In this document: positions 17,583 through 27,430 of the stretch, piece after piece
How positions within the stretch are numbered: the first letter of the stretch is position 1
Layout of the letters: every line of letters starts with the position of its first letter
Origin: a virus
Length of the DNA: 27,430 nucleotides
Reading direction: 5' to 3' (one strand)
Virus record (IMG/VR): IMGVR_UViG_3300027977_000165
Span: 1 to 27,430 of that record
Notes under the pieces: generated by a model
Database searches by the model: none
The model's input: the letters and a program-made list of their open reading frames with translations, nothing else
What the model was told of the DNA's origin: nothing
Made by a program: the position numbers and the translations under genes

Positions 17583-17677
17583 TGATGAAAATTGACGGAC
17601 ATGACGACGCAATCATCGGGCCTGCAATGGTCTGGACCGAGGACATGTGGGAAGACTGGGTAGAGGACGACGAATGA
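17582..17677 (+). CDS. Acidic 31-aa micro-protein between primase and helicase
   Basis: ATG at 17582 shares a base with the primase stop (TGATG). The frame's own TGA overlaps the helicase ATG (ATGA at 17674), so it is coupled on both sides; AAAGGAG lies 12-18 bases upstream. The product begins MMKIDGHDDAIIGPA and ends in a Trp/Glu/Asp-rich tail. The 'IDGHDDAIIG' start matches what I recall of a small phage protein family, normally about 50-70 aa and often near replication genes. This copy appears shortened to that N-terminal signature plus an acidic tail. Function is unknown; a DNA-mimic or protein-binding role is only speculation. Confidence 0.65.
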   Translation: MMKIDGHDDAIIGPAMVWTEDMWEDWVEDDE

Positions 17678-19173
17678 CTACCACCAAAGTTTTCGGCCCA
17701 CCCGGCTCTGGCAAGACGACGTTTCTTTTGAGCATCGTTGAGCAGGAGCTGGCAGGCGACGTGCATCCGATGAAAATCGGCTACTTTGCTTTCACTAAGA
17801 AGGCTGCCACCGAAGCGCGCGACCGGGCCATCCAGAAGTTCCCCAACCTGAACCCCGACACCGACTTCCCGTTCTTTCGCACCCTGCACAGCCTGGCATA
17901 CCGATGCCTTGGCATCAGCACCAAGGACATGATGTCGCCAGAGCACTATAAAGAGTTTGCCCTGGAGGCAGGCATTGAGCTGGCCATCGAGAACGGCGAC
18001 GAAGAGTTTGCGGTCAAGGCCGACAACCCCATCCTGAACGAGATCAACATCGCCCGCATTCGCGGCATGGACCTGCGCACGCACTACAACAACTCCAAGA
18101 TGGAAATTGAATGGTTTCATTTTGAGTACGTCGAGCGCGCTTACCGTCACTACAAGACATCACGCAATCTGCTGGACTTCACCGACCTCCTGGAGCATGT
18201 GCTGCTGGAGCCCGAGCGCTTGCCCAAGTTGGAAGCCTTAATCATCGACGAGGCACAAGACCTCTCACGCTTGCAATGGAGGCTGGTCGAGCAACTTGCG
18301 TTGCGAGCCCAGAGGTGCTTTTTGGCAGGCGACGACGACCAGGCTGTCTACACCTGGGCCGGAGCCGATGTCGCGAGCTTCCTGGGGTTTTCGGGTGATG
18401 TCAAAGTCCTTGACCAATCTTACCGAGTCCCCTCGAAAATCCACGCCCTAGCCAACCGCGTGGTGACACGCATCAAGCAGCGCCAGCCAAAGGTCTGGAA
18501 GGCCCGTCAAGAGGAAGGCAGCATCAGTTACTACAACGACTTCAGCCAAGTCGACATCAGCCACGGCAACTGGCTTATCCTGGCCAGCGCCAACTACATG
18601 CTCACCGACATGCACGACTGGATTAAGAGCCAGGGCCTGCTGTTCGAGCGCCACGGACAACGCAGCGTCAGCGAAAGCATCCTGATCGCGGTGCTGGGCT
18701 GGGAGAAGCTGCGCAAGGGCGGAGAAGTGCCATACCACGTGGTTAAGATGATCTACAAGTATATGGACAGTGACTTCATCAAGCATGGCCACAAGATGCT
18801 GCGCACAGCTGACCCGGCAGCCATGTACACGCTTGATCTTTTGACAGAAAAGCACGGACTTCTTTCTACAGAAATTTGGCACAAGGCCCTGACCAAGATC
18901 AGCGAGGACCGCCGGGACTATCTGGTCTCTTTGCTGCGTCGTAATACAAAGCTCACGGGCCACGTGCCTATCAAGCTGTCCACAATCCACGGTGCCAAAG
19001 GTGGCGAGGCAGACAACGTGCTGCTGCTATCGGACCTGTCCACGCGCTTTGCGAAGGACTACGAAAAGAATTCGGACGACATCAATCGTCTGCTGTACGT
19101 GGGTATTACCCGCGCCAAGCAAACCCTGCACATCGTGCTGCCAAAGAACGAACAGAAAGGCTTCAGATTATGA
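17674..19173 (+). CDS. UvrD/Rep-like SF1A DNA helicase, 499 aa
   Basis: I chose ATG at 17674, which overlaps the preceding stop; a start at 17647 would add nine Arg/Gly-rich residues overlapping the micro-gene. Motifs: Walker A G8-P-P-G-S-G-K-T-T16, 'FRTLHSLAYRCLG' (motif Ia region), Walker B D192-E-A-Q-D196, motif III G219-D-D-D-Q223 with 'AVYTWAGAD', motif IV 'LDQSYRVP', motif V 'TIHGAKGGEAD' (H439-G-A-K-G443), and motif VI Y475-V-G-I-T-R-A-K482. At 499 aa it is shorter than cellular UvrD (~720 aa), so the 1B/2B subdomains must be reduced. No nuclease domain is fused. Family role: 3'-5' ssDNA translocation and unwinding. It may serve as the replicative or accessory helicase beside the primase and polymerase. 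Confidence 0.93.
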   Translation: MTTTKVFGPPGSGKTTFLLSIVEQELAGDVHPMKIGYFAFTKKAATEARDRAIQKFPNLNPDTDFPFFRTLHSLAYRCLGISTKDMMSPEHYKEFALEAGIELAIENGDEEFAVKADNPILNEINIARIRGMDLRTHYNNSKMEIEWFHFEYVERAYRHYKTSRNLLDFTDLLEHVLLEPERLPKLEALIIDEAQDLSRLQWRLVEQLALRAQRCFLAGDDDQAVYTWAGADVASFLGFSGDVKVLDQSYRVPSKIHALANRVVTRIKQRQPKVWKARQEEGSISYYNDFSQVDISHGNWLILASANYMLTDMHDWIKSQGLLFERHGQRSVSESILIAVLGWEKLRKGGEVPYHVVKMIYKYMDSDFIKHGHKMLRTADPAAMYTLDLLTEKHGLLSTEIWHKALTKISEDRRDYLVSLLRRNTKLTGHVPIKLSTIHGAKGGEADNVLLLSDLSTRFAKDYEKNSDDINRLLYVGITRAKQTLHIVLPKNEQKGFRL

Positions 19174-25622: not shown

Positions 25623-26038
25623 CACAAGATGAAATCATTGAGATGGCTAGACAGGCGGGATTTTTTGTTAAGGACGACGAGGCGTATAGCCCGTCAAACC
25701 AAGAAGACCACGAATTAACACCTTGCCTTGAGGTCTTTGCCAACCTTGTAGCAGCTAAAGAACGAGAACGAATCATTGCGGCGAATGCGCCAGAGCTTGA
25801 GAAAGCTAACGCGCACATCAAAAGACTTGAAGAGCAGGCATACGACTTGTTGGGCGAACTAAAAGTTGCCAACATTAAACTGTCCACCCCACCACAGCGC
25901 ACATGGGTGGGGCTGACGGATGGGGAAATCGCAAGAGTTGTCAGCCTTGCGGGGTTTTCTCCGGACTGGGCTGAAGCGCATATTGCAACTCAAATTGTCA
26001 GGGTACTCGAAGCCAAACTTAAGGAGAAGAATACATGA
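25619..26038 (+). CDS. Phage protein with N-terminal helical domain and PPQRTWVGLT C-terminus, 139 aa
   Basis: I chose ATG at 25619, overlapping the previous stop (ATGA) with GGAG upstream; a longer in-frame start at 25547 is inside the neighbour. The N-terminus 'TQDEIIEMARQAGFF...LEVFANLVAAKERERI' is a pattern I recall from many small phage proteins. A coiled coil follows ('LEKANAHIKRLEEQAYDLLG'). From ~residue 95, 'STPPQRTWVGLTDGEIARVV' to the terminal 'RVLEAKLKEKNT' is the same 44-residue module as in the 98-aa gene at 24964. Function unknown; the mosaic of a known start and a shared end suggests domain shuffling. Confidence 0.82.
   Translation: MTQDEIIEMARQAGFFVKDDEAYSPSNQEDHELTPCLEVFANLVAAKERERIIAANAPELEKANAHIKRLEEQAYDLLGELKVANIKLSTPPQRTWVGLTDGEIARVVSLAGFSPDWAEAHIATQIVRVLEAKLKEKNT
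26021..26037 (+). promoter_or_regulatory. Ribosome-binding site embedded in KEKN codons, copy 3
   Basis: AAGGAGAAGAATACATG repeats the arrangement of the two upstream junctions with one small spacing change. It encodes Lys-Glu-Lys-Asn-Thr and starts the gene at 26035. Confidence 0.85.
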
Positions 26039-26256
26039 AAACCATCATCCACGTCAACCAACACGTCGTTAAAGCCAACACAAAGAATGGCACAAACGAC
26101 CCCGTTCTGACCATAAAAACCTATAAAACCAATAACTACGCACACGCCGTGGAAATTAAAGGCCCCAGTAAAATCATGTATTCTCCTAATAAGCCGCTAT
26201 CGTGCGGAGCAAAAGTGTGGGTTGAAACCCAAGCACCAGTAGAGGTAATCGCATGA
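26035..26256 (+). CDS. Conserved small phage protein, 73 aa, unknown function
   Basis: ATG at 26035 overlaps the previous stop (ATGA). The pattern 'MKTIIHVNQHVVKANTKNG', 'TIKTYKTNNYAHAVEIKGPS', 'YSPNKPLSCGAKVWVET' is one I clearly recall as a widespread hypothetical protein in phages of Gram-negative bacteria. It is basic and beta-rich with one Cys in a conserved LSCGA turn. Nothing indicates catalysis. It is translationally coupled on both sides. Confidence 0.85.
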   Translation: MKTIIHVNQHVVKANTKNGTNDPVLTIKTYKTNNYAHAVEIKGPSKIMYSPNKPLSCGAKVWVETQAPVEVIA

Positions 26257-26501
26257 GACCCGCTATCTTTTCAACAGAAAATCCCCCGCAACCAATCACC
26301 TGCGTAGAAACTCTTGAGTACATCAACGGCCTGCGCAGAAGAATTGAAGTGCAAAACGACCAAATGGAGCAGCTGGCCGCCCAATCGCAGGAGCTTTTGG
26401 GAAAAGTCCAGCACCTGACAGGAGAGGTCGAGAAGCTCTCCCTGGACCTGGGTATCCAACAAGGGGATGCCGGGCCAGGGTGGCAGAAGGTCGACCAGTG
26501 A
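26253..26501 (+). CDS. Small coiled-coil protein, 82 aa, unknown function
   Basis: ATG at 26253 overlaps the previous stop (ATGA). After a Pro-rich start ('STENPPQPITCVETLEYING') the protein is one long coiled coil with regular Leu/Gln heptads ('DQMEQLAAQSQELLGKVQHL', 'GEVEKLSLDLG'). It has no membrane anchor, so a spanin is unlikely. An oligomerising adaptor is possible. The stop overlaps the next GTG. Confidence 0.72.
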   Translation: MRPAIFSTENPPQPITCVETLEYINGLRRRIEVQNDQMEQLAAQSQELLGKVQHLTGEVEKLSLDLGIQQGDAGPGWQKVDQ

Positions 26502-26755
26502 CCACCGACAAAGAGCTGGCGGCAAAGTTTGCCCAAGCCCTGTGGATGGGCCACGAGCCACGGCCCATGGTCCAAGTGGTTTGCCTCACCATCGATGGAC
26601 AGAAGGTTGTGTGCCTGGGGCCCGTGTTGCATGTGCCGCCCTTAGGCCTGCACGTCGGGGCTATCCAAGAGATTGAGTTCGGGGAGCTGATCCCCGCTGA
26701 GATGGCCGCCAGGCTGCTTAATGGGGAGTTTGCACAAGGGATGGGGGTTCAATGA
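26498..26755 (+). CDS. Small phage protein, 85 aa, unknown function
   Basis: I chose GTG at 26498, overlapping the previous stop (GTGA) with AGAAGG upstream; an ATG at 26480 would overlap more. The product has a helical start 'DKELAAKFAQALWMGHE', then beta-type 'VVCLTIDGQKVVCLGPVLHV', and ends in a helix. A perfect hairpin, ATGGGCC/GGCCCAT (26546-26568), lies in the coding DNA. It is the last gene of the rightward array and overlaps the HNH gene by 38 bases tail to tail. Confidence 0.7.
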   Translation: MTTDKELAAKFAQALWMGHEPRPMVQVVCLTIDGQKVVCLGPVLHVPPLGLHVGAIQEIEFGELIPAEMAARLLNGEFAQGMGVQ

Positions 26756-27029
26756 GCGCCAGGTTTTCGATTCGGTTGTCCAGGGTGTCGCCGTTGGCGT
26801 GCTCTACAGGGGCCACGGGCCACTCGCCATGGCCCAAGAACCAGGCAATGTCGTGTGCGTCCAGCAGCCTCCCGGCAATCCCGATCTTGAGACGACCATT
26901 GCGGTCCAGCGATCCGGCAGGATCACCGGCACGGACACGGTTGCAAGGCCTGCGACGCCAAAAAATCTCGCCGGTGTCTTCGTCATAGCGCAGGAGGTTG
27001 TCGATGGCGGTAAGATAGTCAGTGCTCAT
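26718..27029 (-). CDS. HNH endonuclease, 103 aa
   Basis: ATG at 27029 has AAAAGG upstream on the minus strand. The N-terminus 'LRYDEDTGEIFWRRRP' and the core 'AHDIAWFLGHGEWP' (H59), E76-H77-x-N79-G-D81 and D84-N85-R-I-E-N89-L90 match the small HNH (HNH_3-type) endonucleases common in phages. The residue before the catalytic His is Glu rather than the usual Asp. Family role: metal-dependent DNA nicking or cleavage, often as a mobile free-standing homing-type enzyme or in packaging. It is the only leftward gene in this half, single and without partner, which fits a mobile insertion. No intron or inverted repeats are seen around it. Confidence 0.9.
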   Translation of the reverse strand: MSTDYLTAIDNLLRYDEDTGEIFWRRRPCNRVRAGDPAGSLDRNGRLKIGIAGRLLDAHDIAWFLGHGEWPVAPVEHANGDTLDNRIENLALIEPPSLVQTPH

Positions 27030-27061
27030 GTCGTTGCCTTTTAACGATGGTGGGAAGTAAG

Positions 27062-27088
27062 GCCCAGGTGGTCCAACACCTGGGCTTT
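27062..27088 (+). terminator. Hairpin, probable terminator for the rightward small-gene operon
   Basis: GCCCAGGTG (27062-27070) pairs perfectly with CACCTGGGC (27077-27085) over a 6-base loop, then TTTGCGCATTTT. The T-run is interrupted, so termination may be moderate. Read leftward there is no T-run, but the hairpin would lie in the HNH gene's leader. Confidence 0.6.
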
Positions 27089-27156
27089 GCGCATTTTAGG
27101 GGTTGCATGGTGGTTTTGGGGCGGAAAAGGGTGATTTGTTAGGGTTTGTAGGTACG

Positions 27157-27177
27157 CGGATCACGGATCACGGTCAA
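27157..27177. repeat. Short tandem repeat CGGATCA x2 plus degenerate third copy
   Basis: CGGATCA occurs at 27157-27163 and 27164-27170 and is followed by CGGTCAA. This is a possible protein-binding iteration or slippage product. Confidence 0.6.
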
Positions 27178-27244
27178 TTTCGGCCTTTTAGTAGGACAGA
27201 AATGAAAAAGTAGTTTTATTTTTTTTATTTTTTTAAAATTAGAC

Positions 27245-27334
27245 GTAATAGGAGTAATGGTGTAATAGTTAAATGAAATCAATGTGTTATGAGAACACGT
27301 TACATTACACATAGTCAATAGATGTAATTTACAT
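27245..27334. repeat. Clustered GTAAT words and inverted repeats, iteron-like
   Basis: GTAAT occurs at 27245, 27254, 27262 and 27324 on the + strand and inverted (ATTAC) at 27304. GTGTAAT (27260-27266) faces ATTACAC (27304-27310). GTGTT-ATGAG-AACAC (27284-27298) and ATGTAATTTACAT (27322-27334) are perfect small inverted repeats. Such clustering in AT-rich DNA resembles operator or origin sites. Confidence 0.45.
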
Positions 27335-27339
27335 AAAAT
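27312..27339 (+). promoter_or_regulatory. Possible rightward promoter TAGTCA-N16-TAAAAT overlapped by a palindrome
   Basis: A weak -35 (27312-27317), 16-base spacer and TAAAAT (27334-27339) point out of the window to the right. The palindrome ATGTAATTTACAT fills the spacer, a classic operator position. Confidence 0.3.
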
Positions 27340-27430
27340 GCGCGCGGACTGACTTTTTGAAAAAAAAAAAACATACTCTTCCTCCACAGAAGCTACATAA
27401 AACCCTGAATTTGCCCGTTTTTGCCCTTGT

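Follow-up and report, generated by a model that had tools for sequence, protein, structure and literature searches.

What function does the AT-rich segment at the end of this viral contig serve? The window, that is, the whole stretch of DNA analysed, is the entire contig of 27,430 bases, which is classed as linear, and the segment occupies its last 260 bases. The A+T content is 69% over 27173–27430 and 61% over 27030–27430, compared with ~39–55% in the other 1-kb intervals. The initial annotation noted this drop and proposed a replication origin or early control region. The five GTAAT/ATTAC words that it listed are present at 27245, 27254, 27262, 27304 (inverted), and 27324, all inside 84 bases. 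Dinucleotide-preserving shuffles of 27030–27430 contain 1.26 such words on average, and 0.5% of 2000 shuffles reach five. The tandem CGGATCA heptamer (27157–27163 and 27164–27170) and small inverted repeats were likewise found in the segment. Three features had been missed: an IHF-consensus match at the centre, a pair of long inverted arms on the outside, and the coincidence of the window end with the contig end, beyond which the sequence 3′ of the element can be read only in relatives.

The element is composed of the following parts, given in window coordinates.

27157–27170, plus strand: tandem heptamer CGGATCA ×2, bordering the left arm on its outer side; relatives have degenerate heptads at this place
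27170–27225, plus strand: left outer inverted-repeat arm; matches the right arm, read as its reverse complement, in 41 of 59 aligned columns (z = 5.0)
27213–27234, no strand: T-rich tract at the inner end of the left arm, read from the sequence and conserved in class-A relatives
27245–27266, plus strand: three direct GTAAT words (27245, 27254, and 27262), 9 and 8 bp apart, in conserved columns
27277–27289, plus strand: AATCAATGTGTTA, agreeing perfectly with the IHF consensus WATCAANNNNTTR and lying close to the dyad centre of the arms
27304–27308, minus strand: inverted word ATTAC; 27305–27308 conserved 100, 98, 91, and 95%
27324–27328, plus strand: fifth word GTAAT, terminase-proximal; conserved 100, 98, 100, 100, and 96%
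27340–27347, no strand: G/C block GCGCGCGG; other subtypes carry other G/C-rich blocks instead
27355–27371, no strand: T/A tract (TTTTG, then an A-tract) at the inner end of the right arm, read from the sequence
27360–27418, minus strand: right outer inverted-repeat arm, pairing with the left arm (z = 5.0)
27419–27430, plus strand: contig end; relatives continue with a promoter-like stretch, in most cases a small ORF, and then terS

The contig encodes tail and virion proteins, an AEP primase, a UvrD-like helicase, and a family-A DNA polymerase, followed by a run of small ORFs. An HNH endonuclease gene (HNH_3, phrog_99; 26721–27029, minus strand) lies directly left of the element. The left flanks of related loci are mixed, with p26253 present in 42 of 65 and a related HNH sequence in only 14 of 65, so the HNH gene looks like a mobile insertion. 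A near-perfect inverted repeat, AAGGCCCAGGTG / CACCTGGGCTTT, is located at 27059–27088 and followed by TTTGCGCATTTT; the two together are terminator-like and may serve the early operon. TTTGCGCATTTTA is found again in loci L037 and L114. Relatives carry degenerate heptads of the GGAYCACGGAYC type to the left of the element; such heptads also occur at a few further sites in genomes G001, G002, G004, G005, and DSL-LC04, and the intergenic regions of HTVC027P carry heptads of different sequence.

The closest named phage found is DSL-LC04, whose polymerase is 77% identical to that of the window. HTVC023P-type pelagiphages are next, with 46–49% identity. The DSL-LC04 genome was assembled from a Dishui Lake metagenome, and its authors proposed a new family for it (PMC10611076). 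A polymerase scan of IMG/VR found 488 relatives, 80 of which were kept, and 14 of the polymerase-selected loci were aligned with the window. Scanning with a degenerate word pattern yielded 98 stretches, 97 of which were used as loci. Column conservation was computed from 80 pattern loci with 55 distinct cores, including the window. An exact 31-base query spanning the words had no match in viral_contigs.

The alignment of the 14 loci with the window delineates a conserved noncoding block from ~27215 to 27416. In relatives, the element is a noncoding stretch of ~250 bp that contains three GTAAT words, a central IHF match, further words, a G/C block, and T- and A-tracts inside inverted arms. Columns 27254–27267 and 27272–27281 are fixed by the search pattern and were excluded as evidence. 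The best conserved of the other columns are T27287, T27288, and A27289 (98, 100, and 95%), 27305–27308, and 27324–27329 (96–100%). Columns 27245–27249, also outside the pattern, are conserved 76–96% each, and the three direct GTAAT words are present in the DNA-polymerase-derived relatives as well. Conservation of the words in relatives, a check that the initial annotation had proposed, supports a functional site. Locus L002 is a mosaic, with a polymerase 97% identical to that of the window, a UvrD 75% and a primase 82% identical, a very different TerS, and the words kept.

The pattern of conservation at the centre is that expected of an IHF site. WATCAANNNNTTR is the IHF consensus, a string that also turns up in the IHF literature, and its four N positions coincide with columns 27283–27286, which are variable (71, 62, 45, and 89% conserved) and flanked by constant columns, the constraint that this consensus would impose. 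An unbiased test was made on loci chosen by polymerase or by the DSL-LC04 TerS, 85 of which had a TerS match; 19 with a short upstream region and 9 duplicates were dropped. The perfect consensus is present on the terS strand in 45 of the 57 distinct upstream regions, with a near match in one and none in 11. The chance expectation, from the density in six complete genomes, is 0.016 per upstream region. Nine loci without the match were inspected. Seven of them have GTAAT words in the usual left-hand order around a different centre, and in most of these seven, ATTAC words follow in inverted order beyond that centre. Upstream of terS in L303, L308, L329, and L345, for instance, there is no IHF match; three GTAAT-like words are followed by a different centre and then by ATTAC in inverted order. 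In the pelagiphages, a perfect match occurs in just 1 of 55 distinct upstream regions. These counts, read as consensus matches, argue strongly that IHF binds the element in the freshwater group and that it is not a universal part of the element, since the perfect match is found in 45 of 57 freshwater regions and 1 of 55 pelagiphage regions.

The outer arms form an inverted repeat around this centre. In a first set of 78 elements, the arms have a mean local score of 21.5; shuffled arms score 10.2, as do the real arms when compared in direct orientation. A second set of 92 elements, which includes DSL-LC04 and the window, was selected on centre and words without regard to the arms. The outer inverted repeat reaches z ≥ 3 in 76 of the 92, with a median z of 7.45. 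Relative to the IHF start, the arms extend from −99.5 to +135 (medians), and the arm centre lies 11.5 bp from the IHF centre (interquartile range 10.5–11.6), a near-constant spacing. The arms of L046 are identical at 47 of 52 positions, and those of L002 are weak (z = 1.5). Among repeats of its geometry, the inverted repeat ranks first in the genomes of DSL-LC04, G002, G003, and G004 and second in G005; in the same scan, that of G001 and the HTVC023P element fall outside the best eight.

The arms co-vary in the freshwater group. Their mean score is 21.5 with their own partner and 15.0 when swapped with other genomes. The own partner scores higher in 88–89% of pairs at a core similarity of 0.60–0.85, in 69% at 0.85–0.93, and in 55% above 0.93. 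Co-variation is absent in the pelagiphage group (own 19.3, swapped 21.3) and was dropped as a general rule. Compared with shuffles, the window element shows no excess folding as RNA or single strand (z −0.6 to 0.4). Four relatives (L125, L146, L046, and DSL-LC04) give folding z values of −4 to −9 on both strands, which are due to the inverted arms and indicate no strand. An Rfam search of the element gave no match.

The right flank of the element is as constant as the left is mixed. In 92 of the 97 pattern loci, the element is followed on the same strand by the small terminase gene terS, and the other five loci end 61–558 bp from the pattern. A tblastx match is shared by 100% of right-flank pairs versus 52% of left-flank pairs. 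All 86 right flanks long enough to judge contain terS, and 79 contain a small ORF between the element and terS. The element-to-terS distance is 181–183 bp in seven loci without the small ORF and 403–469 bp in 85 loci; the presence or absence of this ORF accounts for the two spacings. The ORF (MKIDKNIPLPGGVDPRERYPFPDMALGDSF...) is located at 18239–18457 in L013 and at equivalent positions elsewhere, and is missing in L002-type loci. A 59-residue stretch of the small-ORF region had no match in Pfam. When eight TerS proteins were combined into a profile, it matched three small-terminase domains of solved structure, 4zc3, 3zqp, and 2cmp (E values 2e-5 to 6e-5), the latter two of which are from phage SF6. 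PF03592 (Terminase_2) scores above the cut-off for the TerS of L002 and below it for that of DSL-LC04, the two proteins tested. Judged by these matches, the N-terminal helix-turn-helix DNA-binding domain of TerS is of the SF6/SPP1 type.

The constancy of terS as a partner points to packaging at least as much as to replication. Together with the SF6-type TerS, it makes initiation of packaging the most economical reading. We tentatively propose, at somewhat below an even chance, that the element is a pac-like packaging-initiation site recognised by TerS and folded by host IHF.

The neighbouring sequence could also suggest that the element controls transcription of terS or of a late operon, with the words and an IHF complex placed upstream of a promoter. 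The rightward promoter cluster initially reported inside the window did not stand out in a sigma-70 consensus scan of 25900–27430, which gave 2 promoter-like sites against 0.9 ± 1.0 in shuffles. In relatives, a conserved rightward promoter-like stretch (GTTGCGTT ... TTGTTGCACAAT) does occur just past the position of the window end; both it and a small ORF start directly downstream of the element, which favours a control region. However, the seven L002-type loci that lack the small ORF keep the full word set, and the downstream stretch inspected for this type lacks the promoter-like sequence just described. Long inverted arms with fixed spacing are unusual for promoters, and the word cluster occurs once per genome where it is found. 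A role in transcription control is quite improbable.

A replication origin is a stronger competitor. An initiator would bind the GTAAT words, IHF would bend the DNA, and the T/A tracts would melt. Repeated words, an IHF site, and AT tracts are the usual layout of an iteron-type origin, and here an AT-rich region does lie beside repeated words; the element is the most AT-rich 200 bp in four of the six complete genomes. Subtypes with the same GTAAT words have strongly different TerS recognition-helix regions, and retention of the words despite this change would suit an origin, as polymerase (75–97%) and primase (77–97%) stay similar across subtypes. Polymerase, primase, and TerS all diverge together, and the comparison did not single out the reader of the words. 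On the other hand, strand composition does not switch at the element in any of the six genomes. The minimum and maximum of the detrended circular GC skew lie away from it in all six, which removes the skew support for an origin; a cumulative skew that appeared to start at the element was an artefact of rotating the sequence there and disappeared on detrending. No replication or initiator gene adjoins the element, and the polymerase gene ends ~6 kb upstream in the window; not every phage origin has an adjacent initiator gene. The words are spaced 8–9 bp apart, and iterons are usually spaced by roughly 20 bp. Among these objections, only the skew speaks directly against an origin, which we consider possible but rather doubtful. 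The function first proposed for the segment is half borne out. What stands is a cis-acting site that is conserved and combines iterated words with the consensus of a DNA-bending site; the skew support for an origin is gone.

Contig ends bear on whether packaging would start at a fixed cohesive end. In a cos site of the lambda type, the G/C block would be the nicking site. The block that follows the last word varies by subtype (GCGCGC, GGGGGGCTCCGCGAG, GGGGTGTCCCTACG, GGGGTGTGCGCACG, or GGGAATCGTTGG), and the GCGCGC form is missing in some of them. It lies beside the words, next to an IHF match and an adjacent terS, and the contig of L014 (the same contig as L195) ends inside it, all of which a cos site could explain. 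Nevertheless, only 1 of 97 pattern loci has a contig end at the G/C block, 61 bp after the pattern. In five complete-length contigs and the DSL-LC04 record, the element is located 5 to 53 kb from the left end. A cos site is very improbable. The varying position fits headful packaging better than fixed cos ends, bearing in mind that metagenome contigs do not show virion ends. In 6 of 80 pattern loci, the contig begins no more than 80 bp before the pattern, at scattered points in or near the T tract, and pelagiphage contigs often start upstream of terS too. Trouble in assembling homopolymers explains these starts as well as real ends would. An integration site (attP) was also considered and rejected, as no integrase is named in the DSL-LC04 annotation.

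The packaging reading suggests the following sequence of events. Host IHF would bind 27277–27289 and introduce a sharp bend near the dyad centre. The bend would bring together the GTAAT words, T/A tracts, and outer arms of both sides, and one multimeric protein could grip both. TerS, encoded downstream on the same strand, would assemble on the folded DNA through the words or the arms. The large subunit would make the first cut near the element, and headful packaging would then proceed along the concatemer.

Several observations count against packaging. As the TerS recognition helix varies while the GTAAT words stay, TerS may not read the words. The position beside terS might simply reflect synteny where early genes give way to late ones. 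The IHF match, as counted above, is rare in pelagiphages and missing in 11 of the 57 freshwater regions, some of which keep words and arms. In addition, HTVC027P has a related TerS gene without a recognisable element before it. Its terS (L362, 15254–15781) is inverted and lies ~5 kb before terL, moved relative to the large subunit. A ~550-bp intergenic region before gp35 (17670–18219) has its own inverted repeats of another kind. HTVC027P appears to be an exception or to have lost the element–terS layout.

In HTVC023P and its relatives, copies of the word CTAGGAAA flank a centre on either side, within the ~200 bp preceding terS. The order of word, centre, word, and terS is kept in these pelagiphages, although the word differs and TerS is only 31–32% identical. 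One may speculate that the freshwater DSL-LC04-type phages and the HTVC023P-type pelagiphages share a previously undescribed class of phage genome-recognition site of ~250 bp, with arms at a near-constant distance from a central bend. The freshwater arms would change together, and recognition would depend on the match between arms and on the fixed words; the site could gate both replication and packaging. We regard this proposal as unlikely. If it were true, arms that vary between genomes and yet match within each would amount to a novel principle of self-DNA recognition by a phage. The analysis yields one precise candidate of ~250 bp per genome, with a named host protein (IHF) and a named phage protein (TerS). 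In the literature within reach, which leaves out most subscription journals, no packaging or replication start site was found described for HTVC023P-type pelagiphages or their freshwater relatives. Titles and the opening parts of abstracts on DSL-LC04, HTVC023P, cosB, IHF and terminase, P1 pac, IHF with headful packaging, and pelagiphage origins contain no description of this element, and no paper was found that brings together an origin, an inverted repeat, IHF, and TerS. The terms "replication origin", "intergenic", and "GC skew" are absent from the available part of the HTVC023P paper (PMC9599517).

Comparison with known systems reveals partial likenesses. The element resembles iteron-type origins with IHF in its repeated words, IHF match, and AT-rich tracts, but differs from them in that its adjacent gene is terS rather than an initiator gene and that the skew does not switch. 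P1 pac and P1 parS combine short repeated sites with an IHF site. No partition proteins are named in the DSL-LC04 gene list, unlike the situation at P1 parS.

The cosB site of lambda lies upstream of the small terminase gene Nu1. As outlined in PMC4856287, TerS sites R3 and R2 flank the IHF site I1 (R3-I1(IHF)-R2-R1), and the IHF bend brings them together. The present element likewise has repeated short sites on both sides of an IHF match beside a small terminase gene, where TerS binding is putative. Unlike cosB, it has outer inverted arms of ~55 bp and T/A tracts, and its contig ends do not pile up at the G/C block as fixed cohesive ends would. Its TerS is of the SF6/SPP1 type, whereas that of lambda is a winged-helix protein.

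In SPP1, TerS brackets a bent region of pac and is held to wrap the bent DNA, according to the same source (PMC4856287); a review questions the SPP1 TerS binding data (PMC9611059). The element differs from the SPP1/SF6 pac (pacL-pacC-pacR) in its IHF-consensus match, repeated pentamers, and matched arms; pacL and pacR of SPP1 share no sequence (PMC4856287). It shares with the SPP1/SF6 pac the family of the TerS DNA-binding domain and a predicted bend bracketed by recognition-like sequences. As in SPP1/SF6, the site adjoins terS. The complete contigs end at varying places, as headful packaging would give, but metagenome contigs do not show virion ends.
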